From Albimonas marina (GTDB taxonomy: Bacteria; Pseudomonadota; Alphaproteobacteria; Rhodobacterales; Rhodobacteraceae): a stretch of 64,000 nucleotides of DNA. This document shows, piece after piece, positions 2,712-19,604 of the stretch. The stretch spans positions 186,001 to 250,000 of the forward strand of contig NZ_JARHUC010000009.1 of the NCBI RefSeq assembly GCF_029223255.1. Reading direction: 5' to 3'. Positions within the stretch are counted from its first letter, which is position 1; every line of letters starts with the position of its first letter. Below the pieces are notes generated by a model, which saw only the letters and a list, made by a program, of their open reading frames with translations, searched no databases and was not told where the DNA came from. The position numbers were made by a program, and so were the translations under genes.

Positions 2712-3188
2712 TCAGAGCAGGAAGTCGAAGTCGCCGACGTCGGTGATCGCGGGCCCGCCGTCGGGGTCGCCGCCGGTCGACACGCTCGATACCAGCACGT
2801 CGGTCATCTTGATCTCGACCGTCCCGTCGCCGTTGCGCTTGACCTTGTAGTCGAAGTCGAACCCCGTGGCGTCGAGGAACGCGTCGAGACGCGCGGCGTA
2901 CTCCAGCGCCTCCTGGTAGCCGGCCTTGCCTTCGGCCAGGGGGACGTAGGTCACGTCGAGCTTGAGGAAGATCGGCGTCGGATCGCCCGCCGCCGCGTGC
3001 TCGGGCGGCCCGCCCGGCGACAGGATCGAGAGGTCGAAGCTGTCGATGTCGCGCGTGTGATGCGTCAGCACCCGCAGCAGGTATTCCGCCTCGTCGATGA
3101 GCTGGCCCTTGTAGCGGTCCAGAACCTCCTGGATGTCTTGCGACTCGCCATCGATGTCCGGGATCTTGAGATAACCGGTTAACGGCAT
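2712..3188 (-). CDS. Hcp-like (type VI secretion tube-like) protein
   Basis: 158 residues. The N-terminus reads Y-L-K-I-P-D-I-D-G-E-S-Q-D (6-18), the hallmark opening of Hcp proteins, and near the C-terminus MTDVLVSSVSTGG resembles the Hcp segment before the last strands. The middle (about 20-100) is more helical and less Hcp-like. Length is normal for Hcp (about 160). ATG 3188 is preceded by GGAGGAGG and is clearly better than the long upstream extension of the frame. Hcp forms hexameric tubes and is secreted by type VI systems; no other type VI gene is visible here, so this is an orphan Hcp, an Hcp-fold structural protein, or a remnant. It is coupled to a methyltransferase downstream. Confidence 0.6.
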   Translation of the reverse strand: MPLTGYLKIPDIDGESQDIQEVLDRYKGQLIDEAEYLLRVLTHHTRDIDSFDLSILSPGGPPEHAAAGDPTPIFLKLDVTYVPLAEGKAGYQEALEYAARLDAFLDATGFDFDYKVKRNGDGTVEIKMTDVLVSSVSTGGDPDGGPAITDVGDFDFLL

Positions 3189-3362
3189 GGTTGCGCCTCC
3201 TCCACTGGGAAACAATCGTGACGCAGGGAGGGTGAACCCCGCTTGAAGCTGACGTAAGGGAGGCTTGCGGTCCGCGGCGTTCCGCGCTCGGGTCGGCACG
3301 AAACCCGCATGGCCGAGGCCGCCCCGTGCCCGCTGCCCGTCCCCGCTGAAGGAACCGCCCCC

Positions 3363-4601
3363 ATGTCCGCACCCCTCGTCGACGCCGCCCGCCTCTGGGA
3401 CCGGCACATGAGCCTCGCCCGGATCGGCGCCACGCCCGAAGGCGGCGTGCGCCGCCTCGCCTTCGACGCGGCCGAGGTCGCGGCCCACCGCCTGCTGGCC
3501 GACTGGGCGCTGGCGCGGGGCTTCGCCCTCGCCCTGGACCCCGCCGGCAACCTCTTCGTCCGGCGCGAGGGGACGGACCCCGCCGCCGCCCCCGTCGTCT
3601 CCGGCTCCCATCTCGACAGCCAGCCCTCGGGCGGGCGTTTCGACGGGGTGTTCGGCGTGCTCTGCGCGTTCGAGGCGATGGAGACGGCGGAGGACCGCGG
3701 CCTCGTCACCCGCCGCCCGCTGGAATGCGTGGTCTGGGCGAACGAGGAGGGCTCCCGCTTCCGGCCGGGCTGCATGGGCTCGGCGGTCCAGGCCGGCGAG
3801 ATGACGCTCGCCGAGGCGCTCGCCACGGTGGGCGACGACGGCGCGACCTATGGCGAGGGGCTCGACGCCCTGCGCGCCGCGTTGCCCGAGGCCGCCCCCG
3901 CCCCCCTCGACCGCCCCTTCGCCGCGCTGCTGGAGGCGCATATCGAGCAGGGCCCCCTGCTGGAGGCGGGCGGAGAGCTGATCGGCGTGGTCGACCGCGT
4001 GCAGGGGCACCGGCGGCTCGACATCTCGGTCGTCGGGCGGGAGGACCACTCCGGCGGCGCGCCGCTGAGCCTGCGCAAGGACGCCTTCGTGGACGCGATC
4101 GAGGTCTGTCGGGGCCTCGCCGAGCTGTGCCGGGACGAGACCGACGTGCTGCGCTTCACCTTCGGCCGCTTCGTGGTCAGCCCCAACGCCGTCTCGGTGG
4201 TGCCGGGGCGGGTGGACATGGTGCTGGACCTGCGCCACCCCGACCAGGAGGAGCTGGTGCGCCTGGGCGACCTCGTCCACGCGAAGGCGCAGGGTCTGGC
4301 GCGGCTGTGCGAGGTGACGGTGGCCGACAGCTCCTGGCACGCGCCCGTCGCCTTCACGCCTGCGATCCGCGAGGCGCTCTCCCGCTCCGCCGCCGCCCGG
4401 GGCTTCGCGCAGCGCGAGATCTACTCCGGCGGCGGGCACGACGCGCGCTGGTTCCCCGGCCGCTGCCCCACGGGGATGCTGTTCATCCCCTGCGAGAACG
4501 GCGTCAGCCACCACCCGGCCGAGAACGTGGACCCCGCCCATGCCGCCGCCGGCGCCCAGGTGATCGCCGACGTGATGCTGGAGCTGGCGGGCGAGGGCTG
4601 A
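3363..4601 (+). CDS. M20-family amidase (hydantoinase/L-carbamoylase or allantoate amidohydrolase type)
   Basis: 412 residues. Metal-binding and catalytic signatures of the hydantoinase/carbamoylase family are present: GSHLDSQPSGGRFDG (81-95, with H83 and D94) and WANEEGSRF (126-134, with the EE pair), then the HIEQGP motif, and SGGGHDA near the C-terminus. These enzymes are cytoplasmic binuclear metal hydrolases that remove carbamoyl groups from N-carbamoyl amino acids or hydrolyse allantoate or ureidoglycine. ATG 3363, preceded by GAAGGA, gives the family length; an in-frame ATG at 3309 is less likely. It is divergent from the Hcp-like gene. Which carbamoyl substrate it uses cannot be read from sequence; a D-carbamoylase lies at 28475-29413. 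Confidence 0.85.
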   Translation: MSAPLVDAARLWDRHMSLARIGATPEGGVRRLAFDAAEVAAHRLLADWALARGFALALDPAGNLFVRREGTDPAAAPVVSGSHLDSQPSGGRFDGVFGVLCAFEAMETAEDRGLVTRRPLECVVWANEEGSRFRPGCMGSAVQAGEMTLAEALATVGDDGATYGEGLDALRAALPEAAPAPLDRPFAALLEAHIEQGPLLEAGGELIGVVDRVQGHRRLDISVVGREDHSGGAPLSLRKDAFVDAIEVCRGLAELCRDETDVLRFTFGRFVVSPNAVSVVPGRVDMVLDLRHPDQEELVRLGDLVHAKAQGLARLCEVTVADSSWHAPVAFTPAIREALSRSAAARGFAQREIYSGGGHDARWFPGRCPTGMLFIPCENGVSHHPAENVDPAHAAAGAQVIADVMLELAGEG

Positions 4602-4750: not shown

Positions 4751-5743
4751 ATGGCCACGCTCACCCAGGCCCAGCACGACCGCGCCGTCCGCTTCATCGC
4801 GGCCAACCGCTTTCCCTTCCCCGACCAGCCCGACCCGAGCTGGCCGCTGCACTACCGGACCTGGTTCAACTCGCAGACCCATCCCCGCATCGCCATCGAG
4901 GGGCCCGACGGCCCGCATTACCCCGACATCGTGATCGTCGACGGCGACGGCCGCCTGCGGGAGATCGCGGAGGTCGAGACCGCGCTCTCCCCCGACATGA
5001 TCCCCCGCTGGCGGGCCGCCTCCGAGGCCGCCGACGACACCACCGAGACCGGCTGCCGCCACCTGCTGGTCTACGTGCCCGAGGGGCTGGAGGCCGAGGC
5101 CCAGGCGATGCTGGAGGGGGCCGGGATCAGCTACCACGCCCTGCGCGGCATCCGCGTGGACGAGGACGGCACGGTTCACGTCCTGCCCCACCAGACGCTG
5201 GGCAACACCAAGGACCACCGCCCCGACAGCCCGCCGCCCGCCTCCCAGGACCCGGTGCGCGCGACGCTCGACGACGACGCGCGCGAGGCGGTGATCCGCT
5301 TCCTGCTGGCCGAGCGCTTCCCCTTCCCCGGCGAGGGGGTCGAGCAGTGGGGCCTCGACCTCCACTGCCTGACCAACACCCGCCACCACCGCCGCCGCGC
5401 CATCCCCGGCCCGGACGGCGACCTGTTCCCCGCCATCGTGGTGGTCGACGCCGAAGGTCGCCCCTGCAAGATCGCGATGGTGGAAACCGAGGTGGGCCCC
5501 GAGACGCTCCCCGCCTGGAAGGCCTGCTCCGAGGCCGCGGTCTACGAGGGCCACTACACCGACCCCGACACCGGCCGCCCGGCGAAGCACTTCCTCCTCT
5601 ACGTCCCCCTGGGGCAGGAGGAGACCGCCCGCGAGATGCTGATCGAAGCCGGCATCTCCTGCGCCGGCGTGCGGGGCTACGAGGTGACCGAGGCGCTCAG
5701 GGTGCGGATGCCGGCGATCCTGCCGCCGGTGGTGCGGGGCTGA
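4751..5743 (+). CDS. Tandem-domain protein of unknown function (PD-(D/E)XK-like?)
   Basis: 330 residues made of two copies of one ~150-residue domain (about 5-148 and 175-325) joined by a Pro-rich linker (155-172). Shared landmarks are RFPFP, a GPDG...YPDI strand, a charged E-V-E-T strand, a hydrophobic HLLVYVP strand, and GISYAGVRG near the end. A third, single-domain copy is encoded at 18158-18631. In the first copy D59 followed by E74-x-E76 could be the acidic core of a restriction-endonuclease-like fold; in the second copy the equivalent positions are A228 and M243, with only E245 kept, so it would be inactive. No signal peptide. ATG 4751 follows GAGGGA. I do not recognise the family; the nuclease-like reading is inference. 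Confidence 0.7.
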   Translation: MATLTQAQHDRAVRFIAANRFPFPDQPDPSWPLHYRTWFNSQTHPRIAIEGPDGPHYPDIVIVDGDGRLREIAEVETALSPDMIPRWRAASEAADDTTETGCRHLLVYVPEGLEAEAQAMLEGAGISYHALRGIRVDEDGTVHVLPHQTLGNTKDHRPDSPPPASQDPVRATLDDDAREAVIRFLLAERFPFPGEGVEQWGLDLHCLTNTRHHRRRAIPGPDGDLFPAIVVVDAEGRPCKIAMVETEVGPETLPAWKACSEAAVYEGHYTDPDTGRPAKHFLLYVPLGQEETAREMLIEAGISCAGVRGYEVTEALRVRMPAILPPVVRG

Positions 5744-5818: not shown

Positions 5819-6172
5819 ATGCCATGGACCGTGCTGTTCGCCGACGAGTTCGAGCCGGAGTTCGATGCGCTGCCTGCGCCGGTGCAGGACGCGATCTATG
5901 CCCGCGCCAGGCTGCTGGAGCGGGAGGGGCCGGCGCTGGGCCGTCCCCATGCGGACACGCTGGCCGGCTCGCGGCACCGGAACATGAAGGAGCTGCGCTG
6001 CACGGCCGCCGACGGCGTCTGGCGCATCGCCTTCGCCTTCGACCCGGACCGGCAGGCGATCCTGCTGGTGGCCGGGGACAAGTCCGGCGGCGGCGAGCGA
6101 CGGTTCTACAAGCGGCTGATCGAGCGGGCGGACGAGCGCTTCGACCGCCACCTGCGACTGCGGAAAGGATGA
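5819..6172 (+). CDS. higB: HigB/RelE-type toxin (phage Gp49-like)
   Basis: 117 residues. The body shows the Gp49-like/HigB pattern: an N-terminal basic-acidic strand (MPWTVLFADEFEPEF), HADTLAG...MKELR (45-60), a WRIAFAFDP strand (68-76), ILLVAGDKSG (81-90) and a C-terminal basic helix. Proteins of this group are ribosome-dependent mRNA interferases that stall growth when free of antitoxin. It is the first gene of a two-gene operon and its stop overlaps the antitoxin start by the ATGA motif, so translation is coupled. The toxin-first order is typical of HigBA. The start codon has a weak ribosome binding site, which may limit toxin synthesis. Confidence 0.85.
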   Translation: MPWTVLFADEFEPEFDALPAPVQDAIYARARLLEREGPALGRPHADTLAGSRHRNMKELRCTAADGVWRIAFAFDPDRQAILLVAGDKSGGGERRFYKRLIERADERFDRHLRLRKG

Positions 6173-6528
6173 CGGCCATGGCGCGCACGCTGGCGGAGAA
6201 GCTCGCCGACCTCGACCCCGACCGGCGCGAGGTGATCGAGGCGGAGGCCGATCGGCTCCATGCCGAGTATCTGACCCTTCAGCAGCTTCGCAAGGCGAAG
6301 GCGCTGACGCAGGTGCAGCTTGCCCAGAGCCTCGGGGTGCAGCAGGCGACCGTCGCGAAATACGAGCGGCAGAGCGACCTGCTGCTGTCGACCCTCAGGA
6401 GCTACGTGCAGGCGATGGGGGGCGAGCTGAAGCTGATGGTCGAGTTTCCCGATGCGCCCCCCGTGACGCTGGACGGGCTGGGCGACGCCGAGGAGCCGCG
6501 CAGGCGGCGGAGCGGCGCCCCGGCCTGA
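6169..6528 (+). CDS. higA: HigA-type XRE antitoxin
   Basis: 119 residues from ATG 6169 (an alternative in-frame ATG lies at 6178). Residues 36-68 form an XRE helix-turn-helix: LRKAKALTQVQLAQSLGVQQ followed by ATVAKYERQSD. The helical N-terminus and the GELKLMVEFPD strand near 85-94 match antitoxins that neutralise Gp49-like toxins. It would bind the toxin and, with it, the palindrome at 5787-5800. The C-terminal tail is Arg-rich and probably disordered. Overlap with the toxin stop makes the pair one transcription and translation unit. Confidence 0.85.
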   Translation: MTAMARTLAEKLADLDPDRREVIEAEADRLHAEYLTLQQLRKAKALTQVQLAQSLGVQQATVAKYERQSDLLLSTLRSYVQAMGGELKLMVEFPDAPPVTLDGLGDAEEPRRRRSGAPA

Positions 6529-6538
6529 CGGCGGCGGA

Positions 6539-7378
6539 TCATTCCCGTCCCGCCACCGACCGGATGAAGTTCCGCGTCCGCTCCTCCTGCGGGTCGTCCA
6601 TGATCTGCGCCGCGGGGCCCGTCTCCACGACCCGGCCCTGGTCCATGAACACCACCCGGTCGCCGACCTCGCGGGCGAAGCCGAGCTCGTGGGTGACCAC
6701 GACCATGGTCATGCCGGCGCGGGCCAGGTCGCGCATCACCGCGAGGACCTCGCCCACCAGCTCGGGGTCCAGCGCCGAGGTCGGCTCGTCGAACAGCATC
6801 ACCTTGGGATTCATCGCCAGCGCCCGCGCGATGGCGACGCGCTGCTGCTGGCCGCCCGAGAGGTCCTTGGGGTAGCTTGAGGCCTTCTCGGCCAGCCCCA
6901 CCCGGGCGAGCAGGCGGCGGGCGCGGTCCTCGGCCTGGCCGCGGGGCTCCTTCAGGACGTGGATCGGGCCCTCGGTGATGTTCTGCAGCGCGGTCATGTG
7001 CGGGAACAGGTTGAAGCGCTGGAAGACCATGCCGGTCTTGCGCCGCTGGCGGGCGATCTCGGCCTCGGGCAGGGGGTGCAAGCGCTCCCCCTCCAGCCGC
7101 CAGCCCAGCAGCTCCCCGTCGAGCCAGAGCGAGCCCTCGTCGATCCGCTCCAGCTGATTGATGCAGCGCAGGAACGTGGTCTTGCCCGAGCCGGAGGGGC
7201 CGATGATGCACACCACCTCCCCCTCGGCCACGTCGATCGACACCTCCGACAGCGCCCGGAACTCCCCGAACAGCTTGCCCACCCGGCGGCCCGAGACGAT
7301 GGGCAGGCCGGGGGCGGTGGTGGGGGCGACGTCCTGCTCCATCTGCGATGCCCTGCCGTTGACGGTCATGTCGTTCAT
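6539..7378 (-). CDS. Polar amino acid ABC transporter ATP-binding protein
   Basis: 279 residues. Walker [10 protein letters not shown] (60-68), Q-loop in [16 protein letters not shown], signature LSGGQQQR, Walker [13 protein letters not shown] and H-loop VVVTHE are all intact. The [11 protein letters not shown] opening and [15 protein letters not shown] segment are typical of GlnQ/HisP-class ATPases. It is the last gene of a three-gene importer: binding protein (9098), permease (8256), ATPase. Its ATG overlaps the permease stop by four bases. An insertion after Leu-Asp-Gly (about residues 86-105) enlarges the region before the Q-loop, as in some histidine/arginine-type members. Confidence 0.92.
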
Positions 7379-8256
7379 GCGTCCCGCACCCCCGAGGCGA
7401 AGCCGCGGCCGAAGCGACGCTCGAGGCGGCTCTGGCCGATGGAGAGGATCGTGACCACCACCAGATACCACGCGGCGGCGACCATCAGCAGTTCGATCAC
7501 GCGGGCGTTCACGTAGTAGATGTCCTGGCTGGTGCGCAGCACGTCGGCGAAGCCGATGATGGAGGCGAGCGAGGTCATCTTCACCAGGCCGATGAACTCG
7601 TTGCCCAGGGGCGGGATCACCACCCGCATCGCCTGGGGCAGGATGATGCGCTTCAGGCTCGCCCAGTAGCTCATGCCGATGGCCTGGGCGGCCTCGTACT
7701 GGCCGCGGTCGACCGACAGCAGGCCCGCGCGCATCACCTCCGAGGTGTAGGCGCCCTGGTTCAGGCCCAGGCCCAGCAGGGTGGCGACGGCGGGGGTGAT
7801 GACCTCGACCGTGCGCACCTGGAAGCCGGGAAAGCCCAGCCAGGGGAACACCAGCGCCAGGTTGAACCAGATCAGCAGCTGCAGGATCACCGGCGTGCCG
7901 CGGAAGAACCACTGGTAGCCCACCGCCACGTTGCGCAGCACCGGGTTGGGCGAGCCGCGCATCACCGCCACCAGCACGCCGATGACGATGCCGATGATCA
8001 TGCAGGCGATGGACATCCAGATGGTGTTGACCACGCCCATCAGGATCGTGGGCCAGAACAGGTATTCGCCCGTGACGTCCCAGGCGATCTTGCCCAGGGC
8101 GAAGGCGCGGATCAGCCAGGCGATCAGCAGCACCATGATCGCCACCGCCGCGATGCGGCCCCAGCGACGGGGCCGCACCACGATCATCTTCGAGACGTCG
8201 ACCTCGGGGGCGGCTGCGCGCGCGCCCGGGGCGAGTGCGGAGCCGCCCGCCGCCAT
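7375..8256 (-). CDS. Polar amino acid ABC transporter permease
   Basis: 293 residues. A long cytoplasmic N-terminus (about 30 residues) precedes a first membrane helix ([17 protein letters not shown]), then the HisM/GlnP-type core with [17 protein letters not shown] and the EAA-type loop [23 protein letters not shown] that docks on the ATPase. About five to six membrane segments are visible. A single permease is present, so the transporter probably works as a homodimer. Both ends overlap neighbours by ATGA, which couples it to the binding protein upstream and the ATPase downstream. Confidence 0.92.
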
Positions 8257-9098
8257 CAGGGCTGCGGACCCTGGTTGACGGTCGGCTCGTCGAGCGCCGA
8301 GAGGTTGAGCTTCCACTTCTCGATCAGGCTCATGTAGGTGCCGTCCTCCCACAGCTCCTTGAGGGCGGCGAGGAAGGCCTCGCGCAGCTCCGTGTCCTCC
8401 TTCGCGAAGGCGATGCCCATCAGGGCGGAGGAGATCGGATCGCCCAGCGCCTTGAACTCGCCGGGGTAGGTCTCGAGGATCGTGGGCACGGCCTCGAGGC
8501 CCTGGACCGCGGCGACGGCGCGGCCGGTGCGCAGGTTGGTCAGCTGCTGGCCGCGGTCGGTGTCGACGATGACCTCGATCGGCTCCTTGCCGTTGGCCAC
8601 GCAGTTCTTCTCGGACCAGGTCTCGACCGTCTTGGGATAGGAGGTCCCGCGCGAGGTGGTGATGGTCTTGCCGCAGAGGTCCGCGGCGCTCTCCAGCCCC
8701 TCGGAGACCGGCGAGTAGAACTGGGCGCCGGCGCGCAGGTAGTCGATGAAGTCGAAGATCTCGCGGCGGGCGGGCGTGTCGTAGAAGCCCGACCAGATGA
8801 TGTCCACGCGGCCCGACTGCAGGGCGGGGGTCATCGCCTCGAAGGCGCCGTTGAGGTACTCGACCTCGAAGCCCAGCTTGTCGCCGACGGCCTTCAGCAG
8901 GTCGACGTCGAAGCCGGTGAACTCGTTCGTCGCCGGGTCCAGCATCTCCATCGGGGGATAGCCGGCGTTCAGCGCCGATTTCAGGACGCCCGCGTCCTTG
9001 ATGCGCGCGGGCAGCTCCTGCGCGCCGGCCGCTCCGGCGGCCGCGGCTATGGCGAGCGTCGCGACGAGGGCCGCCGCGCCTTTGGTGATCCGTCTCAT
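8256..9098 (-). CDS. Amino acid ABC transporter substrate-binding protein (SBP_bac_3)
   Basis: 280 residues. A signal peptide (about 1-26, ending AGAQE) is followed by the family-3 solute-binding fold: [18 protein letters not shown], then [36 protein letters not shown] and a TSRGTSYP ligand-loop region. It delivers a polar solute to the adjacent permease. Because the downstream cluster encodes a NodB-type amidohydrolase and, across a TetR regulator, a deiminase-fold enzyme and M20 hydrolases, a ureido or guanidino compound or amino acid derivative is a plausible ligand, but this is inferred only from context. Confidence 0.9.
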
Positions 9099-9197: not shown

Positions 9198-10118
9198 TCA
9201 GCGGCTGGGCGTCACGATCTGCGGGACGGCGCCGTCGTAGGGGGGAAGCGTCTCCTCCGGGGGCGTCCAGTCTCCGCGGGCCACGAGGCCCTCGATGTGC
9301 TCGGCGATCTCGGCGCAGGTGGCGAACCAGACATCGCCCTTGGCCATCATGTGCTCGATCAGGCGCACCTGCTCCTCGGCGCGCGCGAGGCGGCCGGAGA
9401 CGAACGGGTGCCAGACCGCGGTCCACAGGCCGCCATGCTCCCACGCCGCGTCGAAGTCCGCCTGGAAGACGGCGCGCGCCACGGCCGGGGCCTGGGGCTG
9501 CATCGTCCAGCCCGAGACGGGCAGGTTCACGTACTGGTTCCAGTCGTCGGCCGTCGCCTCGTGCGGCAGCTCGACCACCGATCTGCCGTCCGGGCGCTTG
9601 ATCAGGTAGGGCACGTCGTAGCCCGCGAGCGAGGCGTCGTAGCGGATCCCATGCTCGATCATCAGGTCTAGCGTATGCTCGGAGAACGCGCCCGACGGGC
9701 AGCGGTAGCCGACGGGCGGCTTGCCGGTCGCCTTCTCGATCGCCCGCACGCCGGCGATCATCACCTTCTCCTCGTCCTCGCGCGAGAGCTGGTTGGTCCG
9801 CTCGTGCAGCCAGCCGTGGTGGCCGATCTCGTGGCCGCCCTTCACCAGCAGATCGACCGCGTCAGGGTACTGCTCCAGGCACCAGCCGGGGGTGAACACG
9901 GTCTGGCGGATGCCGAAGTGGTTCCAGATCTTGACGATGCGCGGGATCGCGACCGTCGCGCCGTACTTGAGCGTCTGCTGCAGCGTGACCCGGCGGCGGA
10001 CGTCGTCGCTGGGGAAATAGAGGTGCAGCAGGCTCTCGGCGTCGAAGTCGTAGGCGAAGCAGACCGCGCAGCGCGCGCCGTTCGGCCAGGGGGGCGGGTT
10101 GTCGATCAGGCTCAGCAT
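9198..10118 (-). CDS. Polysaccharide deacetylase family (NodB/PuuE-like) hydrolase
   Basis: 306 residues of the NodB homology fold. The metal site is visible as D24/D26 in YDFD and the H96-x3-H100 motif in GHEIGHHGW; YRCPSGAFSE supplies the usual Arg/Pro-rich motif 3. There is no signal peptide, which favours an intracellular C-N hydrolase of the PuuE allantoinase/cyclic-imide type over a cell-wall deacetylase. It precedes the amino acid transporter on the same strand (99-bp gap) and is divergent from the TetR regulator, with a TTGACA on its strand overlapping the candidate operator at 10257-10272. The substrate is unknown. Confidence 0.82.
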   Translation of the reverse strand: MLSLIDNPPPWPNGARCAVCFAYDFDAESLLHLYFPSDDVRRRVTLQQTLKYGATVAIPRIVKIWNHFGIRQTVFTPGWCLEQYPDAVDLLVKGGHEIGHHGWLHERTNQLSREDEEKVMIAGVRAIEKATGKPPVGYRCPSGAFSEHTLDLMIEHGIRYDASLAGYDVPYLIKRPDGRSVVELPHEATADDWNQYVNLPVSGWTMQPQAPAVARAVFQADFDAAWEHGGLWTAVWHPFVSGRLARAEEQVRLIEHMMAKGDVWFATCAEIAEHIEGLVARGDWTPPEETLPPYDGAVPQIVTPSR

Positions 10119-10306: not shown

Positions 10307-11044
10307 ATGCAGCCGGAAAGAACGAAGAAGCGCGGAGGCGATTCGGTGGCGGCAGGCGGCCTGAGGCAGAAGCACAAGCGGCGCAGGCTGCAGCAGGTGC
10401 TCGACGCGGCGGAGGTGCTGTTCTCGACGAACGGCTACGAGGCGACGCGGATCGAGGCGATCGCGGACAGCGCCTCGGTGGCGCCGGCGACGGTCTACAA
10501 CTACTTCGCCACCAAGCCGAACCTGCTGATGGCGCTGGCCATCCGCCACGTGCGCAGCGCGCTGCCCGAGCGGCGCGCCTACCTCCAGGACCTGCCCGAG
10601 GACATCCTGGCCGCGATCCTGGGGTTCGAGCGTCTGCTGGCCGAACAGGCCATGCGTCACCTGTCGCGGGAGTGCTGGCGGGTGATCCTGTCCTCCCAGC
10701 ATATCGAGCCGGGCGGGCGCGCGAGCCGCACCGGGGCGCGGCTGAACAACCTCATCAAGCGCCACTACATCCGCCTGCTGGGCACCTACCGCGACCGCGG
10801 CGTGCTGCGCGACGACCTCGACATCGCCGAGCTCGCCGGGCTGATCGTGGGAATCACCACCTGGGACTTCTCGCGCTTCGTCTCCTCCGAGGCGGGCACG
10901 ATCGAGGATCTGCTGCGCAAGGGCGTGCCCGGCATCCGCCTGATCCTCGAGGGGCTGCTGACCGAGGAAGGGGCGCGGCTGCTGGCGACCTCTCCGGCGA
11001 TGGGCGACGTGCCCCCGGTGACCGGGCTCGACCCCGCCGCCTGA
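10307..11044 (+). CDS. TetR-family transcriptional regulator
   Basis: 245 residues. A basic N-terminus (1-30) leads into the TetR DNA-binding domain: RLQQVLDAAEVLFSTNGYEA, then the HTH IEAIADSASVAPATVYNYFATKPNLL. The rest is the all-helical ligand/dimer domain. It sits between the divergent deacetylase/transporter operon and the deiminase operon, with near-identical palindromes on both sides (10257-10272 and 11109-11124), which is the expected layout for a local repressor. The inducer is unknown. ATG 10307 follows a GTCTGGT leader with weak Shine-Dalgarno. Confidence 0.9.
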   Translation: MQPERTKKRGGDSVAAGGLRQKHKRRRLQQVLDAAEVLFSTNGYEATRIEAIADSASVAPATVYNYFATKPNLLMALAIRHVRSALPERRAYLQDLPEDILAAILGFERLLAEQAMRHLSRECWRVILSSQHIEPGGRASRTGARLNNLIKRHYIRLLGTYRDRGVLRDDLDIAELAGLIVGITTWDFSRFVSSEAGTIEDLLRKGVPGIRLILEGLLTEEGARLLATSPAMGDVPPVTGLDPAA

Positions 11045-11271: not shown

Positions 11272-12276
11272 TTGACCGCGATCACCGAGAACGAGTGGCG
11301 CTACAACCAGACCATCAAGCGCTTCCCCTCCGAGCCCGAGCCCGCCTTCGAGGCGCCGGACCAGCTGGAGCGGTGGTGGGGCCGCAACTGGGGCTGCACC
11401 AACGACGTGGGCAAGCTGCGCGTGGTGCTGATGCACCGGCCCGGGGAAGAGCTCCTGCAGGTGGACGCGTCCAAGAAGCTCGACTTCAACTCCTACGGCG
11501 ACGAGCAGGCGGGCTGGTACTGGCGCGGCGACGTCCCTCCCGACCTGCCCGCGATGCAGGCCCAGCATGACGCCTACGTGGCGCTGCTGCGCTCCGAAGG
11601 GGTCGAGGTCGTGTTCATCGACCGCGCCGCCAGGGACCGGATGAAGACCTGCTACACCCGCGACTCGGTCGTGGGCATCGGCGGCGGCGCCATCGTCACC
11701 CGCCTCGGGCCCCGCATCCGGCGGGGCGAGGAGCTGCCGGCGACCCGCACGCTGGCCTCCATCGGCTGCCCGATCCTGCGCACCATCAACGGAACGGGCG
11801 TGTTCGAGGGCGGCAGCTTCGCCTGGCTGAATTCCAAGACCGCGGTCGTCGGCGTCTCCTCGCGCGTGAACGAGGAGGGGGCCAAGCAGGTCGGCGAGGT
11901 CCTCGCCGCCCAGGGCGTCGAGCTGATCCGCGTGCAGCTGACCGGCTACCGCCTGCATATCGACGGCCTGTTCGTGATGCTCACGCCGGACCTCGCGCTG
12001 GTGAACTCGGCCCTGCTGCCCTGGTGGTTCCTCCAGCAGCTGGACGCCATGGGCATCTCCATCATCGAGGTCTGCCCGGAGGACGACGGCTCGATCATCA
12101 ACTCCCTCGCCATCGCGCCGGGGCGGGTGATCATGCCCGACGGCCTTTCGACCCGCACCGAGGGCGAGCTGCGCCGCGCGGGCGTCGAGATCCTGCAGAC
12201 CCCCTACGACCAGGTGATCCTGGGCGGCGGCGGCCTGCACTGCTCGACCGCCCCCCTGATCCGCGACGAGGTCTGA
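11272..12276 (+). CDS. Arginine deiminase/amidinotransferase-fold hydrolase (DDAH-like)
   Basis: 334 residues from a TTG start preceded by GAAGGAG. The guanidine-modifying fold is evident: YTRDS at 128-132, FEGG at 178-181, LHIDG at 228-232 (H229) and the terminal LHCST at 322-326 with nucleophile C324. These supply the Cys-His-Glu/Asp triad of dimethylargininase, arginine deiminase and related enzymes, which hydrolyse a guanidino group to a ureido group in the cytoplasm. The next gene starts two bases after its stop. Substrates other than arginine derivatives are likely, given the N-terminal tryptophan-rich extension (residues 1-48). The longer upstream frame is not supported. Confidence 0.85.
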   Translation: MTAITENEWRYNQTIKRFPSEPEPAFEAPDQLERWWGRNWGCTNDVGKLRVVLMHRPGEELLQVDASKKLDFNSYGDEQAGWYWRGDVPPDLPAMQAQHDAYVALLRSEGVEVVFIDRAARDRMKTCYTRDSVVGIGGGAIVTRLGPRIRRGEELPATRTLASIGCPILRTINGTGVFEGGSFAWLNSKTAVVGVSSRVNEEGAKQVGEVLAAQGVELIRVQLTGYRLHIDGLFVMLTPDLALVNSALLPWWFLQQLDAMGISIIEVCPEDDGSIINSLAIAPGRVIMPDGLSTRTEGELRRAGVEILQTPYDQVILGGGGLHCSTAPLIRDEV

Positions 12277-12278
12277 GC

Positions 12279-13889
12279 ATGTCCGAGACGATCCCCGAGC
12301 TTCCCGACTTCGACTGGACCCCCGCGCAGGCGGAGGCGCTGGAGTGGCTGAAGGCCAACCATGAGGCCCTGTCGCAGGACCACATGACGATCTGGAACTT
12401 CCACGAGCCGTCCTGGCGGGAATACAAGTCGTCGGCCTGGTACATGGACCGGCTGGAGGCGGAAGGCTTCGAGGTCGAGCGCGGCTCGGGCGGGATGCCC
12501 ACCGCCTTCCGCGCGGTGTGGTCCAACGGCCCCGGCCCGACCATCGGCGGCTACGCCGAATACGACGCCGTGCCGGGCCAGAGCCAGGCGCCCGTCCCCC
12601 GCCGCCAGCCGCGCGAGGGCACCACCAAGCACGCCGCCGGCCACACCGACCCGCATTCCGCGCTGGGCATCGGCGCCTTCGCGGGCTTCCTCGCCGCCAA
12701 GCGGGCGATGGAGCAGCACGGCATCGGCGGCACGCTGGTGTTCTTCGGGGAGCCGGCCGAGAAGCTCTGCGGCTCGAAGCCGATCCACGCGGCGAAGGGC
12801 TACTACGACGACCTCGACGCCGCCTTCTCCTTCCACCCCCACAGCTTCCCGGCCCTGACCAACGGCTGCTTCTGGGAGACGACCTCCGCCCCCCTGTGGA
12901 GCCGGATGTACACGTTCGAGTGCGAGAACCCCGAGACCTGGCAGCAGGGCCACTCGGCGGGCGGGGCCACGCATCCCCACGCCTCGGCCCGCGCGCCGGG
13001 GGCCATCGACGCGGTGTGCATGATGTACACCACCTCGAAGATGATGAAGGAGTCGATGCTGCCCCACACCGGCTCCTGGGCGATGAACGAGTTCATCCCG
13101 GTGGCCGGTCAGGCGACCTCGGACAACATCGCGCCGGCCATCGGGCAGGTGCAGTTCACGCTGCGCGCGCCGGCGATCGAGATGTGCAACGCGGCCTACG
13201 CCGTGCTGGACCGCAACGCCGAGCAGATCGCGGGCATGACCCACTGCACCTGGCGGGCGGACTGGATCGCGCGCACCCGCGCGGGCCTGCCCAACAAGGC
13301 GATGGCCGAGATCACCTACCGCAACTTCAACAAGCTCGGCGCGCCGAAGTGGTCGGACGAGGCGAAGGCCTTCGCCCGCGCCCTGCAGAAGGAGCTCGGC
13401 GCCCCGGAGACGGACGAGCCGCTGCTGGCGGGGATGGAGAAGCTGACCCCGCCGTGGGAGGCGGAGGAGAGCTTCCGCGCCCAGCTTCCCGCCTGGCAGC
13501 TGAACTACGCCGCCGACGACTACGTCGACTACACCTGGCACTGCCCGACCGTGCGCCTCTACGTGGCCCGCCCGACCATGGAGGCGCGGCCCGACGGCGC
13601 CCGCTGGCCGGAGTGGGTGCGCCACGCCATGGGCGGCGTGCCGGCCTGCATCGACCCGATGTGGTCGAAGGCCGCCGAGGTGATCTCGACCACCCTCCTC
13701 GACCTGCTGACCGATCCCGAGGGGCTGGCCCGCGCCAAGGCCGAGTTCGAGGCCCGCACCGGCGGCGGCGTCGGCGGGACCGACTGGGTCGCCCCCCTGC
13801 TGCCCGCCGACTTCGAGCCGCCGATCCATTACCGCTGGCCCGAATACGTCGAGACGCCCCGCGGCCCGGAATGGACCGTGCGGTCTTGA
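12279..13889 (+). CDS. M20 amidohydrolase, AbgB/PM20D2-like
   Basis: 536 residues. Metal-site motifs of the aminobenzoyl-glutamate hydrolase group are present: AEYDAVPG, then HAAGHTDPHSALG and FFGEPAEK, with a central dimerisation lid (ARAPGAIDAVCMMYTTSKM). HAAGH replaces the more common HACGH. The enzyme hydrolyses an amide between an amino acid and another group; the related AbgB acts on p-aminobenzoyl-glutamate. It is longer than AbgB (about 480) because of an extended N-terminus and C-terminus. It lies two bases after the deiminase and overlaps the nitroreductase by 19 bp, so the three are translated from one message. Confidence 0.85.
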   Translation: MSETIPELPDFDWTPAQAEALEWLKANHEALSQDHMTIWNFHEPSWREYKSSAWYMDRLEAEGFEVERGSGGMPTAFRAVWSNGPGPTIGGYAEYDAVPGQSQAPVPRRQPREGTTKHAAGHTDPHSALGIGAFAGFLAAKRAMEQHGIGGTLVFFGEPAEKLCGSKPIHAAKGYYDDLDAAFSFHPHSFPALTNGCFWETTSAPLWSRMYTFECENPETWQQGHSAGGATHPHASARAPGAIDAVCMMYTTSKMMKESMLPHTGSWAMNEFIPVAGQATSDNIAPAIGQVQFTLRAPAIEMCNAAYAVLDRNAEQIAGMTHCTWRADWIARTRAGLPNKAMAEITYRNFNKLGAPKWSDEAKAFARALQKELGAPETDEPLLAGMEKLTPPWEAEESFRAQLPAWQLNYAADDYVDYTWHCPTVRLYVARPTMEARPDGARWPEWVRHAMGGVPACIDPMWSKAAEVISTTLLDLLTDPEGLARAKAEFEARTGGGVGGTDWVAPLLPADFEPPIHYRWPEYVETPRGPEWTVRS

Positions 13890-14623
13890 GCGAGCGGCCC
13901 CCGAAGCCGGCGGCGGCGGAGGCGTGCAGCGTCTCCGCCGTCGTCGACGGCCGCCGCTCGATCCGCCGGTTCCTCGATGCGCCGGTGGACCGGGCGCTGG
14001 TCGAGGACGTGGTGCGCCGCGCCGCCCGCGCGCCCTCGGGCTCGAACGTGCAGCCCTGGGCGGTGCGCATCGTCGACGGCGAGCGGATGGACGCGCTGCG
14101 CGCGATGATGCGCCGCCTGCGCGCCGAGCGGCCGGAGGGCGAGCCCCTCGATCCGCCCTACCAGCCCCCCGCCGGCCCGCCGCCCGAGTTCCAGCGCCGC
14201 CGCCTGCGCAACGGAGAGATTCTTTACGGCGCGCTGGGCATCGACCGGTCCGACGCCGCCGCCCGCGCCGCCTGGAACGAGGAGAACTTCCAGTTCTTCG
14301 GCGCCCCCGCGGGCGTGTTCCTGCTGATGCGGCGCGAATGCGTGGCCTGGCAGTGGCTCGACCTCGGGATCTACCTTCAGACCCTGCTGCTGCTGTTCGA
14401 GGAGGCGGGCCTGGGAACCTGCCCCCAGGCCGACTGGGCGATGCATGGCGAGGCGGTGGCGTCCTTCCTGGGCGTCGACCCCGCCTTCCGCCTGCCGGTC
14501 GGCGTCGCGGTCGGGATCCCCGACCTGACCGCCCCCGAGAACCGGATCCGGACCGAGCGGGACGATCCGCTGGCCGACGATCCCGACGCCTCGCCTCCCC
14601 CTCCCGGAGCCTTCCCATGCTGA
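13871..14623 (+). CDS. Nitroreductase-family FMN oxidoreductase
   Basis: 250 residues. The FMN-binding opening V-x-x-R-R-S-I-R-R-F (about 27-36) and RAPSGSNVQPWAV are the classic nitroreductase motifs, and GLGTCPQA near the C-terminus is the usual FMN-phosphate loop. It would use NAD(P)H to reduce nitro groups, quinones or an enone. The ATG at 13871 lies inside the 3' end of the preceding M20 gene (19-bp overlap) and the stop overlaps the aldolase start by 7 bp. A Pro-rich insertion at about 75-105 is atypical. Role in the pathway is unknown. Confidence 0.85.
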   Translation: MDRAVLSERPPKPAAAEACSVSAVVDGRRSIRRFLDAPVDRALVEDVVRRAARAPSGSNVQPWAVRIVDGERMDALRAMMRRLRAERPEGEPLDPPYQPPAGPPPEFQRRRLRNGEILYGALGIDRSDAAARAAWNEENFQFFGAPAGVFLLMRRECVAWQWLDLGIYLQTLLLLFEEAGLGTCPQADWAMHGEAVASFLGVDPAFRLPVGVAVGIPDLTAPENRIRTERDDPLADDPDASPPPPGAFPC

Positions 14624-15402
14624 ATTCCGCGAACCTGCCCGCGACCCTCCCCCAGCCGCCGGGCCCCGACCACGTGCCGACCGAGCAGGAGCTGCGCGAG
14701 GATCTCGCCGCCGCCTACCGGCTGATCGCGCTGTTCGGGATGACGGACACGGTCTTCACCCACCTCAGCGTGCGGGTCCCGGGCGAGGGCCACCAGTTCC
14801 TGGTGAACCCCTACGGCCTGCTGTTCGAGGAGATCACGGCCTCCTCCCTGGTGCTGGTCGACGCCGACGGCGAGCCGAAGCAGGAAACCTCCTGGCCGGT
14901 GAACCCCGCGGGCTTCGTGATCCACTCCGCCATCCACCGCGAAGCGCCCAACGCCGCCTGCGTGATGCACACCCACACCCAGGCCGGCATGACCGTCTGC
15001 GCCCAGGCCGGCGGGCTGCTGATGCTCAACCAGATGTCGATGGAGTTCCACGGCCGCGTCGCGATCCACGAATACGAGGGCATCGCCGCCGACGACAACC
15101 TGTCGGAGCGCGAGCGGATCGTGCGCGACCTCGGCGACAAGACCTGCCTTCTGCTCCGCAACCACGGCCTGCTGACCGTCGGCCGCAACGTGGCCGAGGC
15201 CTTCTACAACATGTACTACCTTGAGCAGGTCTGCCGCCTTCAGGTCGCCGCCCAGTCGACGGGGGCGGAGCTGTCGATCCCCCCGACCCAGGTGGTCGAG
15301 CGCACGGCGGCCCAGTTCACGCCGGGCCCCAACAAGGGCTGGCTGCCCTGGCAGGCCCTGCGCCGCAAGCTCGACCGCGAGCAGCCGGACTATCGCCATT
15401 GA
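14617..15402 (+). CDS. Class II aldolase/adducin family protein
   Basis: 261 residues. The class II aldolase/adducin fold is shown by LIALFGMTDTVFTHLSVRVP, the zinc-ligand motif HTHTQAG (about 110-116), and RNHGLLTVG with the third histidine. Relatives are fuculose-phosphate aldolase-like lyases and a large subgroup of uncharacterised members that includes decarboxylases. Last gene of the deiminase operon, followed by a strong hairpin. It may process a carbonyl product released by the upstream hydrolases, but the substrate cannot be inferred. Confidence 0.85.
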   Translation: MLNSANLPATLPQPPGPDHVPTEQELREDLAAAYRLIALFGMTDTVFTHLSVRVPGEGHQFLVNPYGLLFEEITASSLVLVDADGEPKQETSWPVNPAGFVIHSAIHREAPNAACVMHTHTQAGMTVCAQAGGLLMLNQMSMEFHGRVAIHEYEGIAADDNLSERERIVRDLGDKTCLLLRNHGLLTVGRNVAEAFYNMYYLEQVCRLQVAAQSTGAELSIPPTQVVERTAAQFTPGPNKGWLPWQALRRKLDREQPDYRH

Positions 15403-16271: not shown

Positions 16272-17924
16272 ATGACCGCCGCCCCCAGCGCCGCCCCGCA
16301 GAGCTCTCCCAACGCCCCCACCGGCGGCGAGATCGCCGTCGAGAGCCTGCTCGCCAACGGCGTCGACACGCTGTTCGCGCTGCCCGGCGTGCAGCTCGAC
16401 CACCTGATGAACGCGCTGCACGGCGCGACCGACCGGCTGCGGGTGATCCATCCGCGTCATGAGCAGGGCGCGGCCTACATGGCGCTGGGCTACGCGATGG
16501 CCACGGGGCGCGTGGGCGCCTACGCCGTGGTGCCGGGGCCGGGGTTCCTCAACACCACCGCCGCGCTCTCGACCGCCTACGCCGTCCACGCGCCGGTGCT
16601 GGCGGTGATCGGGCAGATCGCCTCGAAGGCCATCGGCCAGGGCGGGGGCGAACTGCACGAGCTGCCGGACCAGTCCGCGATCCTCGACGGGCTGACCCGC
16701 AGCCACGGCATCGCGAGGGAGGCCGGCGAGGTCGCGGGCGTGATGCAGGCGGCCTTCGCGGCGCTGGCTTCCGGCCGCGCGCCGGCGGGTGTGGAGCTTC
16801 CCGCCGACGTGCTGCGCAAGACCGCCGAGGGCGCGACGGTCGCGCCCGCCGCCCGCGCCGTCCCCGCCCCCGACGCGGTCGCTATGGACGAGGCCGCGGC
16901 CCTGCTCGCCGGGGCGAAGCGGCCGCTGATCTGGATCGGCTCCGGCGCGCTCGCTTGCGGCGAGGGGCTGGCCGAGATCGCGGCGCGCATCGGCGCGCCG
17001 GTCGTCAGCCACCTGACCGGCGTGGGCGTGCTGCCCACCGACCACCCCTGGGCCGTGGGCACCTGGGAGGGGCGGGAGCTGTGGCGCGAGGCGGACGTGA
17101 TCCTCGCCGTCGGCACCCGCCTGCACGACCCCCGCCGCCGCTGGGGCGTGGCGGAGGGGCAGGCGGTGATCCGGGTGGACCTCGACCCCGCCCAGTTCTC
17201 CCGCGGGGCGCCGCCGACGGTCGCGATCGAGGCGGACGCGGCCGAGGCGATCCCCGCGCTGGCGCAGGCGCTGGCCGGCGCCGAGATCGCCGCCGACGTC
17301 TCCGCCCGCCAGGCGCGCACGGCCGAGCTGAAGGCCGCCAAGGCCGCGATCTTCGAGGAGCGCCTGGCCCCGCAGATGGCCTATCTGCGCGCGATCCGCG
17401 CGGCCCTGCCGATGGAGGCGGCGGTGGTCTGCGACTACACCCAGATCGGCTACGCCGCGACCGCGGCCCTGCCGATGGACCGCCCGCGCCGGCTGATCAC
17501 GCCGGGCTACCAGGGCACGCTGGGCTTCGCCTATGCGACCGCGCTGGGCGTCAAGGCGGGCCTGCCCGACGCGCCGGTGGTGGCGCTGTGCGGCGACGGC
17601 GGCTTCCTGTTCACCGGCGCCGAGATGGCGACCGCCGTCCAGCACGGGATCAACGCGGTGGGAATCGTGTTCTCGGACGGCGCCTACGGCAACGTGCGCC
17701 GGATGCAGGACCAGATCCACGGCGGCAAGCTGATCGCCTCGGACCTGCGCAACCCCGACTTCGTGGCCTATGCGCAGAGCTTCGGCGCCGAGGCGCGCCG
17801 CGCCGAGGGCCCCGAGGCGCTGGGCGAGGCGCTGGCCTGGGCGATCACGCGCCCCGGCCCGGTGCTGATCGAATGCCCGATGCCGGTGCTGCCCGACCCG
17901 TGGGAGCTGCTGGAGCCGCGCTGA
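16272..17924 (+). CDS. Thiamine diphosphate-dependent enzyme (acetolactate synthase-like)
   Basis: 550 residues with the three-domain ThDP layout. E64 in RHEQGAAYMALGYA is the cofactor-activating glutamate; GDG at 441-443 followed by the AYGN segment is the ThDP/Mg motif; the central domain carries a nucleotide-type Rossmann segment (LIWIGSGALACGEG). It would decarboxylate a 2-oxo acid and ligate or oxidise the product. Because no small regulatory subunit is adjacent, it is probably a catabolic or specialised member rather than the biosynthetic IlvB. ATG 16272 follows GGAGGA. Candidate activities include benzaldehyde-lyase-like or sulfoacetaldehyde-type reactions; none is favoured by context. 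Confidence 0.85.
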   Translation: MTAAPSAAPQSSPNAPTGGEIAVESLLANGVDTLFALPGVQLDHLMNALHGATDRLRVIHPRHEQGAAYMALGYAMATGRVGAYAVVPGPGFLNTTAALSTAYAVHAPVLAVIGQIASKAIGQGGGELHELPDQSAILDGLTRSHGIAREAGEVAGVMQAAFAALASGRAPAGVELPADVLRKTAEGATVAPAARAVPAPDAVAMDEAAALLAGAKRPLIWIGSGALACGEGLAEIAARIGAPVVSHLTGVGVLPTDHPWAVGTWEGRELWREADVILAVGTRLHDPRRRWGVAEGQAVIRVDLDPAQFSRGAPPTVAIEADAAEAIPALAQALAGAEIAADVSARQARTAELKAAKAAIFEERLAPQMAYLRAIRAALPMEAAVVCDYTQIGYAATAALPMDRPRRLITPGYQGTLGFAYATALGVKAGLPDAPVVALCGDGGFLFTGAEMATAVQHGINAVGIVFSDGAYGNVRRMQDQIHGGKLIASDLRNPDFVAYAQSFGAEARRAEGPEALGEALAWAITRPGPVLIECPMPVLPDPWELLEPR

Positions 17925-18157: not shown

Positions 18158-18631
18158 TCAGACCGTGCCGGGCTCGGTCACCTGGTGGTCGTAGGGATCG
18201 CCCGGGGTCACGAAGGGCACCACGCGGATCGCGTCGCCCTCGACCGTGAAGCCGCGCACGCCGGCGTAGGAGATCCTGGCGTCGTCCAGCATCTTCTGCG
18301 CGTCCGCCTCCAGCCCCGCGGGCACGTAGAGGAAGAAGTGGCGCACGCCCGTCGAGGTCTTGTCGTCCGAGGTCTCGGAGCCCAGCCGCAGCATCGGGAC
18401 CTTCGCCGGGTCGATGGTCATCTCGACCTCGCCGACTTCGCGCACCTCGTCGGTGGGCGAGACGATGATGATGTCGGGATAGTAGGGGCCGTCCGGCGTC
18501 TCGATCGCGCGGCGCTTCTCGACCGCGTTGCAGATCGCGACGTAGCCCTCGGGCCAGTCCTGCTGGCCGGGGAAGGGGTAGCGGGTGCGCGAGATGTAGT
18601 GCGCGACCTTGTCATGAACGTCCTGGGTCAT
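18158..18631 (-). CDS. Single-domain paralogue of the 4751-5743 protein, function unknown
   Basis: 157 residues covering one domain: RYPFPG (17-22), ETPDGPYYPDI (44-54), EVGEVE (65-70), RHFFLYVPAGLEADAQKML (97-115) and ISYAGVRG (120-127). All of these match both halves of the 330-residue protein at 4751-5743. The putative acidic residues are intact here (D53, E68, E70). A strong AAGGAGG precedes ATG 18631 and lies inside the 3' end of the transporter gene, which it overlaps by 20 bp. No signal peptide or membrane segment. I do not recognise the family; a PD-(D/E)XK-like fold is a hypothesis. Confidence 0.7.
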   Translation of the reverse strand: MTQDVHDKVAHYISRTRYPFPGQQDWPEGYVAICNAVEKRRAIETPDGPYYPDIIIVSPTDEVREVGEVEMTIDPAKVPMLRLGSETSDDKTSTGVRHFFLYVPAGLEADAQKMLDDARISYAGVRGFTVEGDAIRVVPFVTPGDPYDHQVTEPGTV

Positions 18632-19604
18632 CGGATCCTCCTTCCAGGGGATGGGGTTGAGCGTCGGTGATCGGGGCCGCGGCCGCGGCGGCTACGGGTT
18701 CGGGGGGGCCGGCGGGGGCGACGCGGCGGCGCTCTGCCGCGACGATGGCGAGGCCCGAGGCCAGCACCAGCGCCGCGCCCGCCCAGACATGGGCGGCCGG
18801 CGCCTCGGCGAAGAACAGCCAGCCCAGCGCGAAGCCGACCGGCAGGGCGCCGTACTCCAGCGCCGCCAGGGTCGAGGCCGAGAGCCGCCCCGCCGCCGCG
18901 TAGATCGCGTATTGCCCCGCGCCGCCGGCCATCCCCGCCAGCGCCAGCCCCGCGGTCTGGCGCAAGTCGGCCTGCCAGCCGAGCGCCAGCGCGATCGCGC
19001 CGGTCCCGATCACGAAGACCCCGTTGGAGACCGCGACCTGGAGCAGCGTGGACTCGGCCACCGCGATGGCGCGCAGCAGGATCATCGTCACCGCCCACAG
19101 CGCGGCGGCCAGCAGCCCGAAGCCGGTGGCGGCGGAGAACTCGAGCCGCAGGGCCCCGCTGGTCAGCGCGACGCCCGCGAAGCCCAGCGCGATGGCGACC
19201 CAGACCATCGCCCCCGCCCGCTCGCCCAGGAAGGGCCCGGCGAGCAGCGCCACGATGACCGGCGAGACGAAGTAGAGGGTGATCGCCTGGCCCAGCGGCA
19301 GCTCGCGCAGGGCGAGGTAGAAGGCGCCCCAGGCCGCCAGGTTCACCAGCGCCCGCACCACCATCGTCGGCAGCCGCCGCGCCCGCGGCAGCCGGCGGAC
19401 CAGCGGCCGCCCGCCCAGGAGCAGCGCCAGCGCCAGCACCGCCAGGCTGCGGGCCAGCAGCACCTGCCACACCGGCAGCGCCTGCACGAAATCCTTGCTC
19501 AGCGCATCCTGCAGCGGCAGCAGCACGTTGGCCGCGCAGACGAAGCCGACGCCGATCCACAGGCCCCGCGTCGGGGACAGGAGGGGTTCGGCCGGCGGGC
19601 TCAT
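18612..19604 (-). CDS. EamA-family (DMT superfamily) transporter
   Basis: 330 residues with about ten hydrophobic helices arranged as two EamA repeats; the first repeat ends around residue 145 and the second begins at LEFSAATGFGLLAAALWAV. Acidic/basic residues sit between helices (RPLVRRLPRARRLP). DMT exporters move small metabolites such as amino acids or nucleosides across the inner membrane. The C-terminal ~40 residues are Ala/Pro-rich and cytoplasmic. Its 3' end overlaps the single-domain unknown by 20 bp, so the two are co-expressed. A half-site of the putative TetR operator (CTCCAAGTTT, 19698-19707) and a TTGACG lie upstream. Confidence 0.88.
   Translation of the reverse strand: MSPPAEPLLSPTRGLWIGVGFVCAANVLLPLQDALSKDFVQALPVWQVLLARSLAVLALALLLGGRPLVRRLPRARRLPTMVVRALVNLAAWGAFYLALRELPLGQAITLYFVSPVIVALLAGPFLGERAGAMVWVAIALGFAGVALTSGALRLEFSAATGFGLLAAALWAVTMILLRAIAVAESTLLQVAVSNGVFVIGTGAIALALGWQADLRQTAGLALAGMAGGAGQYAIYAAAGRLSASTLAALEYGALPVGFALGWLFFAEAPAAHVWAGAALVLASGLAIVAAERRRVAPAGPPEPVAAAAAAPITDAQPHPLEGGSDDPGRS

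Follow-up and report, generated by a model that had tools for sequence, protein, structure and literature searches.

What does a small domain do that occurs twice in one protein and once in another of the same genome, and what is to be made of the copy that has lost part of its acidic core? The question is raised by the window, herein the whole stretch of 64,000 nucleotides of Albimonas marina DNA that was analyzed, which carries a gene for a two-copy protein (P0001) and another for a single-copy paralogue (P0002). An earlier note, made from the letters of the window, had seen a possible nuclease-like acidic site in this domain, and had suggested that the two-copy protein is the outcome of an internal duplication.

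Results

Three related domains in two conserved genes

The translations of P0001 (330 residues) and P0002 (157 residues) are free of internal stops (Table 1). Local alignment with BLOSUM62 gave scores of 275 for copy 1 with copy 2, 347 for copy 1 with the single-copy domain and 204 for copy 2 with the single-copy domain, against 60, 59 and 55, respectively, for the best of 500 shuffles (z = 46, 62 and 36). These scores (z = 36-62) bear out the three related domains of the earlier note, two at 4751-5743 and one at 18158-18631, and the residues that it named, D59, E74, E76, A228, M243 and E245 in the two-copy protein and D53, E68 and E70 in the single-copy protein, were correctly placed. Two of the motifs said to be common to all three are more loosely kept than described: copy 2 reads FPAI, not YPDI, and copies 1 and 2 have ISYHALRG and ISCAGVRG, respectively, for the motif given as ISYAGVRG. 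Both genes are kept in two further Albimonas species, A. pacifica and A. donghaensis, with Nei-Gojobori dN/dS below 1 for all pairs compared, and are therefore regarded as real genes. Further copies of the family were not found in the A. marina genome at E values up to 1.

Table 1. Coordinates of the family genes, the surrounding cluster genes and the fused frames of other genomes (window positions unless a locus is named; A and B are the two domain classes described in the text)
Feature	Position	Strand	Basis or remark
M20 hydantoinase/carbamoylase-family amidase	3309..4601	+	TIGR01879 354 bits, cut-off 204
Two-copy protein P0001, 330 aa	4751..5743	+	A-like copy 1 and B-like copy 2; from translation
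Copy 1, residues 1-161	4751..5233	+	D59, E74, E76 intact
Copy 2, residues 162-330	5234..5740	+	A228, M243 at acid positions; E245 kept
Polar amino-acid ABC importer ATPase	6539..7378	-	match to Shinella gene so annotated
Polar amino-acid ABC importer permease	7375..8256	-	match to Shinella gene so annotated
ABC importer substrate-binding protein	8256..9098	-	TIGR01096 114 bits, under cut-off 256
Polysaccharide-deacetylase-family (PuuE-like) protein	9198..10118	-	PF01522 over cut-off; PuuE model 86 bits, under 425
TetR-family regulator	10307..11044	+	match to Shinella gene so annotated; no NCBIfam match
Arginine-deiminase/DDAH-superfamily hydrolase (start approximate)	11272..12276	+	PF02274 64.4 bits, cut-off 22.8; no NCBIfam cut-off met
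Amidohydrolase, M20 type	12279..13889	+	TIGR01891 106 bits, under cut-off 154; plasmid relatives annotated amidohydrolase / peptidase M20
Nitroreductase-family protein	13883..14623	+	PF00881
Class II aldolase/adducin-family protein	14617..15402	+	PRK07044 346 bits, cut-off 207
TPP-dependent enzyme	16272..17924	+	PRK08266 620 bits, cut-off 571; PRK07524 371 bits, under 500
Single-copy paralogue P0002, 157 aa	18158..18631	-	D53, E68, E70 intact
EamA (DMT) transporter	18612..19604	-	PF00892; 3' end overlaps P0002 start by 20 nt
Fused EamA-A frame, Mangrovicella	L017:6930-8474		
Fused EamA-A frame, Xanthobacteraceae MAG	L018:6945-8474		
Fused EamA-A frame, Hyphomicrobiales MAG	L025:7026-8474		

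A rare family without a name in the libraries searched

No family was recognized at E < 0.001 in Pfam (24 members scanned), NCBIfam (P0001 and P0002), PHROGs or PADLOC (29 members). The sole Pfam match of P0002 was RE_endonuc (PF19778; 11.9 bits against a cut-off of 23.4, E 0.21), a model matched by two of the 24 members at E up to 10, with 0.21 as the best value, and the lowest E value over the 24 members, 0.012, belonged to UvrC_RNaseH_dom in two of them, a domain of a different nuclease fold. Nothing exceeded the NCBIfam cut-offs for P0001 or P0002, and the matches of the 29 members in PHROGs and PADLOC were weak and scattered (lowest E 0.0085 and 0.047, respectively). A scan of viral contigs for close relatives of P0002 gave none. 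A defence or phage protein was ruled out as a candidate, with PADLOC, PHROGs and the viral-contig scan with P0002 all unconvincing. Literature searches turned up no paper naming the family or its cluster, by which no absence from print is claimed. The domain family is conserved and is unnamed in the libraries searched.

It is also rare. Scanning the GTDB genome collection by pattern yielded 15 loci in 12 genomes, the genera including Albimonas, Mangrovicella, Rubellimicrobium, Arsenicitalea, Acuticoccus, Aestuariivirga and several others, all of which we take to be Alphaproteobacteria. Among 72,556 plasmid records, 8 carry the family, from Sinorhizobium and Shinella. Sampled genomes were positive in 3 of 394 cases within the same taxonomic family (A. 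marina included), in 2 of 385 within the class (A. marina itself and one chance match in an unrelated protein) and in 1 of 398 within the phylum (A. marina). The match labeled G717 (E 0.01) was dismissed, as it sits in an unrelated protein, presumably HypE-like. The suspicion that the S. meliloti copy is a pseudogene was likewise rejected, the suspected stop being the stop codon of the gene itself.

Predicted fold

AlphaFold2 models were obtained for P0002 (pLDDT 83.4, pTM 0.81, alignment of 9 sequences) and for P0001 (pLDDT 78.5, pTM 0.66, alignment of 24 sequences); the two start from different proteins, and their alignments have members in common. The elements predicted for P0002 are H3-16, E31-34, E54-57, E63-69, H75-87, E99-104, H108-117 and E124-131, comprising an alpha-beta-beta-beta-alpha-beta core that is predicted similarly in both halves of P0001. 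D53 lies directly ahead of one strand of the P0002 model, and E68 and E70 end the next. In Foldseek comparisons against the PDB, the best 27 listed matches of P0002 were all NucS, YaeQ, NucC, PaqCI or AF1548, and the best 18 listed matches of P0001 were all NucC, PaqCI or YaeQ, proteins that we take to be of the PD-(D/E)XK type. The scores were low (best E 3.3e-03, PDB 2vld with the P0002 model; none below 0.001; leading TM-scores about 0.2-0.4), and unrelated folds then follow. Matches to viral structures were of a similar kind and equally weak; those with names included an endonuclease I, an MmcB-like protein, a restriction endonuclease and a PD-(D/E)XK nuclease. Judged from these models, the three domains probably belong to a family with a PD-(D/E)XK-like fold and a D-E-E acidic site.

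NucS/EndoMS (2vld) is the top PDB match of the P0002 model, and passages of a structural account give D165, E179 and K181 as the catalytic residues of Tko EndoMS and D160, E174 and K176 among the residues of Pab NucS that contact the substrate (PMC7343888). Thus, NucS/EndoMS has a D, E, K layout, whereas P0002 has E70 at the motif spacing of the lysine and stands among metabolic genes. Sequence searches of solved PDB structures gave no NucS match and nothing useful. The YaeQ family (PDB 7tcb, 2g3w, 2ot9 and 3c0u), similar in size to P0002, was the second-ranked neighbor and also matches the two-copy model; the Pfam YaeQ model matched none of the 24 members scanned. NucC, a cyclic-trinucleotide-activated nuclease, is a structural neighbor of both models, and PADLOC gave no match at E < 0.04 among 29 members. 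The active site of BamHI is D-E-E (D94, E111 and E113), with E-x-E in place of E-x-K. This site resembles the E-x-E of the family, but BamHI is absent from the 50 best listed PDB matches of either model.

Conservation of the acidic site and its loss in one copy

The site was numbered after P0002 (D53, E68 and E70) and followed in 26 domains other than Albimonas copy 2. D53 is kept in all 26, position 68 is E or D in all 26, and position 70 is acidic in each of the 25 domains with a letter there (24 E, 1 D). The acids of the earlier note are therefore conserved in homologues. The D at position 68 is found in the four Sinorhizobium/Shinella/PR2 sequences and the D at position 70 in the B domain of Mangrovicella. 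The canonical lysine, expected two residues after the (D/E), is missing, the same 25 domains having E in 24 cases and D in one. A PD-(D/E)XK-like site, as suggested in the earlier note, is consistent with the predicted fold, the leading PDB neighbors (at weak scores) and the conserved acids, and fits less well with the lack of this lysine and with the metabolic neighborhood. In one Rubellimicrobium MAG copy (L020:8001-8450, also L032 and L057), a short in-frame deletion takes out position 70, either a real change or a matter of assembly.

In copy 2 of the three Albimonas species, position 53 is A, S and S, position 68 is M and position 70 is E throughout. Loss of both the D and the E was seen in Albimonas copy 2 alone (3/3). 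The earlier note had wondered if this loss is general in copy 2; that was ruled out by Acuticoccus, where copy 2 retains D, E and E, and among the genomes seen the loss is restricted to Albimonas copy 2. The change goes beyond the acids: in the other 26 domains, 30 columns are conserved to 92% or more, and seven of these differ in all three Albimonas copies 2, namely D53, the Q, P and Y at positions 23, 27 and 30, T142 and the D148-H149 pair, which is absent (position 68, with its four D's, does not reach 92%). Among the Albimonas, dN/dS for the three pairs was 0.30, 0.39 and 0.35 in copy 2, 0.27, 0.42 and 0.41 in copy 1 and 0.60, 0.40 and 0.64 in the single-copy gene. The values for copy 2 show that it is still constrained within Albimonas and is maintained, not decaying.

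Two domain classes and the origin of the two-copy protein

A second, diverged paralogue class, B, was found in 5 of 10 genomes searched (Mangrovicella, two Rubellimicrobium, Aestuariivirga and Rhizobiales Y), beside the class A to which P0002 belongs. In Aestuariivirga and Rhizobiales Y, B and A are neighboring genes straight after the ADI-like hydrolase gene, and in both Rubellimicrobium genomes B comes after that gene. Thirteen genomes were searched whole, the three Albimonas and the ten behind ten loci: four have the fused two-copy gene plus a single A, five a free A and a free B, four A alone and none B alone, so that an A and a B-type domain occur together, whether free, in tandem or fused, in 9 of 13. 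As genomes were found by A-like queries, those with B only may have been missed.

A tree built from 29 domains has one clade each for B, copy 1 and copy 2 (100/99 to 100/100). Copy 2 and B are parted from copy 1 and A by a single branch (82/84); the tree program warns of long branches, and the tree does not settle where among the A rows copy 1 belongs. Copy 2 of P0001 has K at a site occupied by E in A-type domains; at position 65, E is found in A and copy 1 (20/20), whereas copy 2 and the five B domains have K or R (9/9). On the residue pattern at position 65 and the 82/84 branch, the two-copy protein looks like an A-B fusion, which is more likely than the simple internal duplication that the earlier note had proposed. 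The alternative, that copy 2 is a duplicate of copy 1 which then diverged, its likeness to B being convergence or long-branch attraction, could draw on the meeting of long branches (copy 2 with B, copy 1 with some A rows) and on a separating branch of just 82/84. We consider it improbable, since a basic residue at position 65 is common to copy 2 and all five B domains, and the copies 1 of Albimonas and Acuticoccus group in one clade, as do their copies 2, so that any duplication would predate the split of those copies. The A-B fusion itself looks older than the divergence of the Albimonas and Acuticoccus copies, whether that came about by descent or transfer. Albimonas and Acuticoccus, to judge by their orders, are not close kin. 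Oddly, A. donghaensis falls outside Acuticoccus among the copy 1 domains of the tree (90/80), while the three Albimonas stand together among those of copy 2 (99/93).

A recurring cluster of catabolic genes

The genomic neighborhoods were compared by running 20 window proteins in tblastn against 18 loci, which come from 15 genomes or records (3 of the 8 plasmid records among them). A recurring pool of genes was found, encoding a TetR regulator, a PuuE-like deacetylase, a polar amino-acid ABC importer, an ADI-like hydrolase, an M20 amidohydrolase, a TPP enzyme, a class II aldolase, a nitroreductase and EamA, and in 14 of the 15 a family gene has at least three of them nearby. The exception is a Rubellimicrobium MAG (L020) in which the contig end adjoins the gene; its B copy adjoins the ADI-like hydrolase and an ABC ATPase. 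Near one Acuticoccus locus (L022) lie just the aldolase gene and a weakly matching ABC ATPase, and the other (L028) has the cluster. In the window, the M20 amidase gene ends 149 nt upstream of the two-copy gene.

Several genes bear on the pathway. In Arsenicitalea, an agmatinase gene (TIGR01230, 202.6 bits, cut-off 174.3) lies immediately upstream of A, and Shinella has a 5-guanidino-2-oxopentanoate decarboxylase (PRK07524, 728 bits, cut-off 500), to which the TPP enzyme of the window is related, the cut-off being missed. Genes processing guanidino, amide and 2-oxo-acid groups are thus linked in one cluster, and this content suggests to us that it breaks down a guanidino compound resembling arginine. 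In Sinorhizobium meliloti, the arginine transamination network (CATCH-N) uses 5-guanidino-2-oxopentanoate decarboxylase and ureohydrolases, and the passages of that paper dealing with CATCH-N mention neither a PD-(D/E)XK protein nor an EamA fusion (PMC7268258). Enzyme types of CATCH-N also occur in some of the family clusters. On a Shinella plasmid, a PLP enzyme (L039:10551-11735; PRK06108 over cut-off) adjoins the A gene; its second-best model, under cut-off, is GntC (gamma-hydroxyarginine cyclodehydratase), and a capreomycidine synthase model is among the weaker matches, which hints at a cyclic or hydroxylated arginine as substrate. Upstream of A in Rubellimicrobium arenae (L019:6183-6866) is an isochorismatase-family protein nearest to the biuret amidohydrolase BiuH (228 bits, under the cut-off of 370).

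Clusters without the family were sought via relatives of the M20 amidohydrolase. Nine plasmid records match this protein at 60-80% identity, eight with the family and one, from Kozakia baliensis (L044), without: the hydrolase, M20, aldolase and deacetylase are 61-69% identical, and a family member was not detected on the plasmid. The domain therefore seems accessory to the reactions of the cluster. The Kozakia cluster also contains two polysaccharide-deacetylase genes and a TonB-dependent receptor. In 372 genomes of the class, the M20 matches besides that of the window were at most 61% identical, and three of the 18 such matches were inspected and had no family member.

The link to an EamA transporter

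The overlap of the EamA and A genes in the window recurs in A. donghaensis (4 nt). In Mangrovicella, a Xanthobacteraceae MAG and a Hyphomicrobiales MAG, EamA (by PF00892) and the A domain form a single open frame with no stop between them, of 515, 510 and 483 residues, respectively, from stop to stop. Right ahead of the A domain, all three frames have a Shine-Dalgarno-like stretch and an ATG, a putative internal start from which a free A form could be made alongside the fused one. The link is not general. EamA adjoins A in 5 of 16 genomes or records (the window, A. donghaensis and the three fusions). In Acuticoccus it lies within the cluster without adjoining A, A. pacifica gave no EamA match in its 19.5-kb region, and the other nine genomes or records, Sinorhizobium included, gave none near A at E 1e-8; an annotated DMT transporter lies three genes downstream in Shinella. 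The single-copy gene of A. pacifica (L012) comes after an FAD oxidoreductase gene, with EamA missing beside it, unlike in the other two Albimonas.

Discussion

Herein, we tentatively propose a role for the family in guanidino catabolism. The three domains would be soluble components of a cluster for the uptake and breakdown of a guanidino compound resembling arginine. Domains of type A (P0002 and copy 1), of PD-(D/E)XK-like predicted fold, would most likely coordinate a metal ion through D53/E68/E70 and act on an intermediate of the pathway in a small-molecule reaction, and in some species they would be physically tied to the EamA transporter. Those of type B, which copy 2 represents, would be the partners of A, and copy 2 of Albimonas, with two of its three acids lost, may serve for binding or pairing alone. 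As a whole, this reading falls somewhat short of an even chance. Against the pairing of A and B stand the 4 of 13 genomes that have A without B, and against the fold assignment stands the fact that no sequence profile links the domain family to any PD-(D/E)XK family. The reading of the locus in the earlier note is partly supported: the predicted fold, the conserved acids and the maintenance of copy 2 agree with it, a simple internal duplication is not supported, and the loss of the acids is not general.

Nearly as likely, and close behind the catabolic reading, is ligand sensing without chemistry, in which the PD-(D/E)XK-like domain would regulate EamA or the catabolic enzymes on binding a metal or the metabolite being transported. 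The in-frame EamA fusions in three genomes and the EamA overlaps in two Albimonas are what would be expected of such a sensor, as are the maintenance of copy 2 without two of its acids and the deletion of position 70 in one Rubellimicrobium MAG copy. However, the acids are otherwise near-invariant across divergent members, which is more typical of a catalytic or metal site, and EamA does not adjoin A in most genomes; taken by itself, a sensing role is somewhat unlikely. To our knowledge, PD-(D/E)XK relatives of known function act on nucleic acids, and a true nuclease on DNA or RNA might be carried in the cluster by chance, e.g. as a stress, regulatory or selfish element. The nearest folds include the nucleases NucS, NucC and PaqCI, and the named viral matches include an endonuclease I, a restriction endonuclease and a PD-(D/E)XK nuclease. 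Nevertheless, E or D stands in place of the canonical lysine in all 25 domains that have a residue at the site (Albimonas copy 2 set aside), the linkage is to catabolic genes and a transporter, the lowest PADLOC E value among 29 members is 0.047, and the domains are acidic. Net charge is negative in all 29 domains (-2 to -13), which does not favor DNA binding, but several of the neighboring enzymes are likewise acidic, so that the charge argument counts little. The missing lysine, the context and the charge make a nuclease the less likely explanation, one that we consider rather improbable, and the function of the family is probably not cleavage of nucleic acids.

Returning to the catabolic reading, in its boldest form a PD-(D/E)XK domain would have left nucleic acids altogether and become a metal-dependent enzyme of guanidino catabolism, with A and B acting as a pair, a DMT transporter joined to the domain in some species, and one half a pseudoenzyme in Albimonas; this we regard as possible but less likely than not. 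We know of this fold almost wholly from work on DNA and RNA. A PD-(D/E)XK family retained among catabolic genes, and in some genomes fused to a metabolite transporter, would allow the move of the fold to small molecules to be tested. For an unnamed domain family, there is now also a definite genomic context and a candidate pathway, together with a naturally acid-poor half to set against the intact ones.

Other features of the window were also observed. Between the two-copy gene and the ABC importer genes (5819-6528, + strand), a Gp49-like (PF05973) protein of RelE/HigB type is followed by an HTH protein, likely a toxin-antitoxin pair. In the middle of the catabolic cluster (15495-16097, - strand) lies a gene for a secreted-looking protein with what we take to be a PEP-CTERM-like tail, and at about 2712-3190 (- strand) a frame starting MPLTGYLKIPDIDG presumably encodes an Hcp-like protein.
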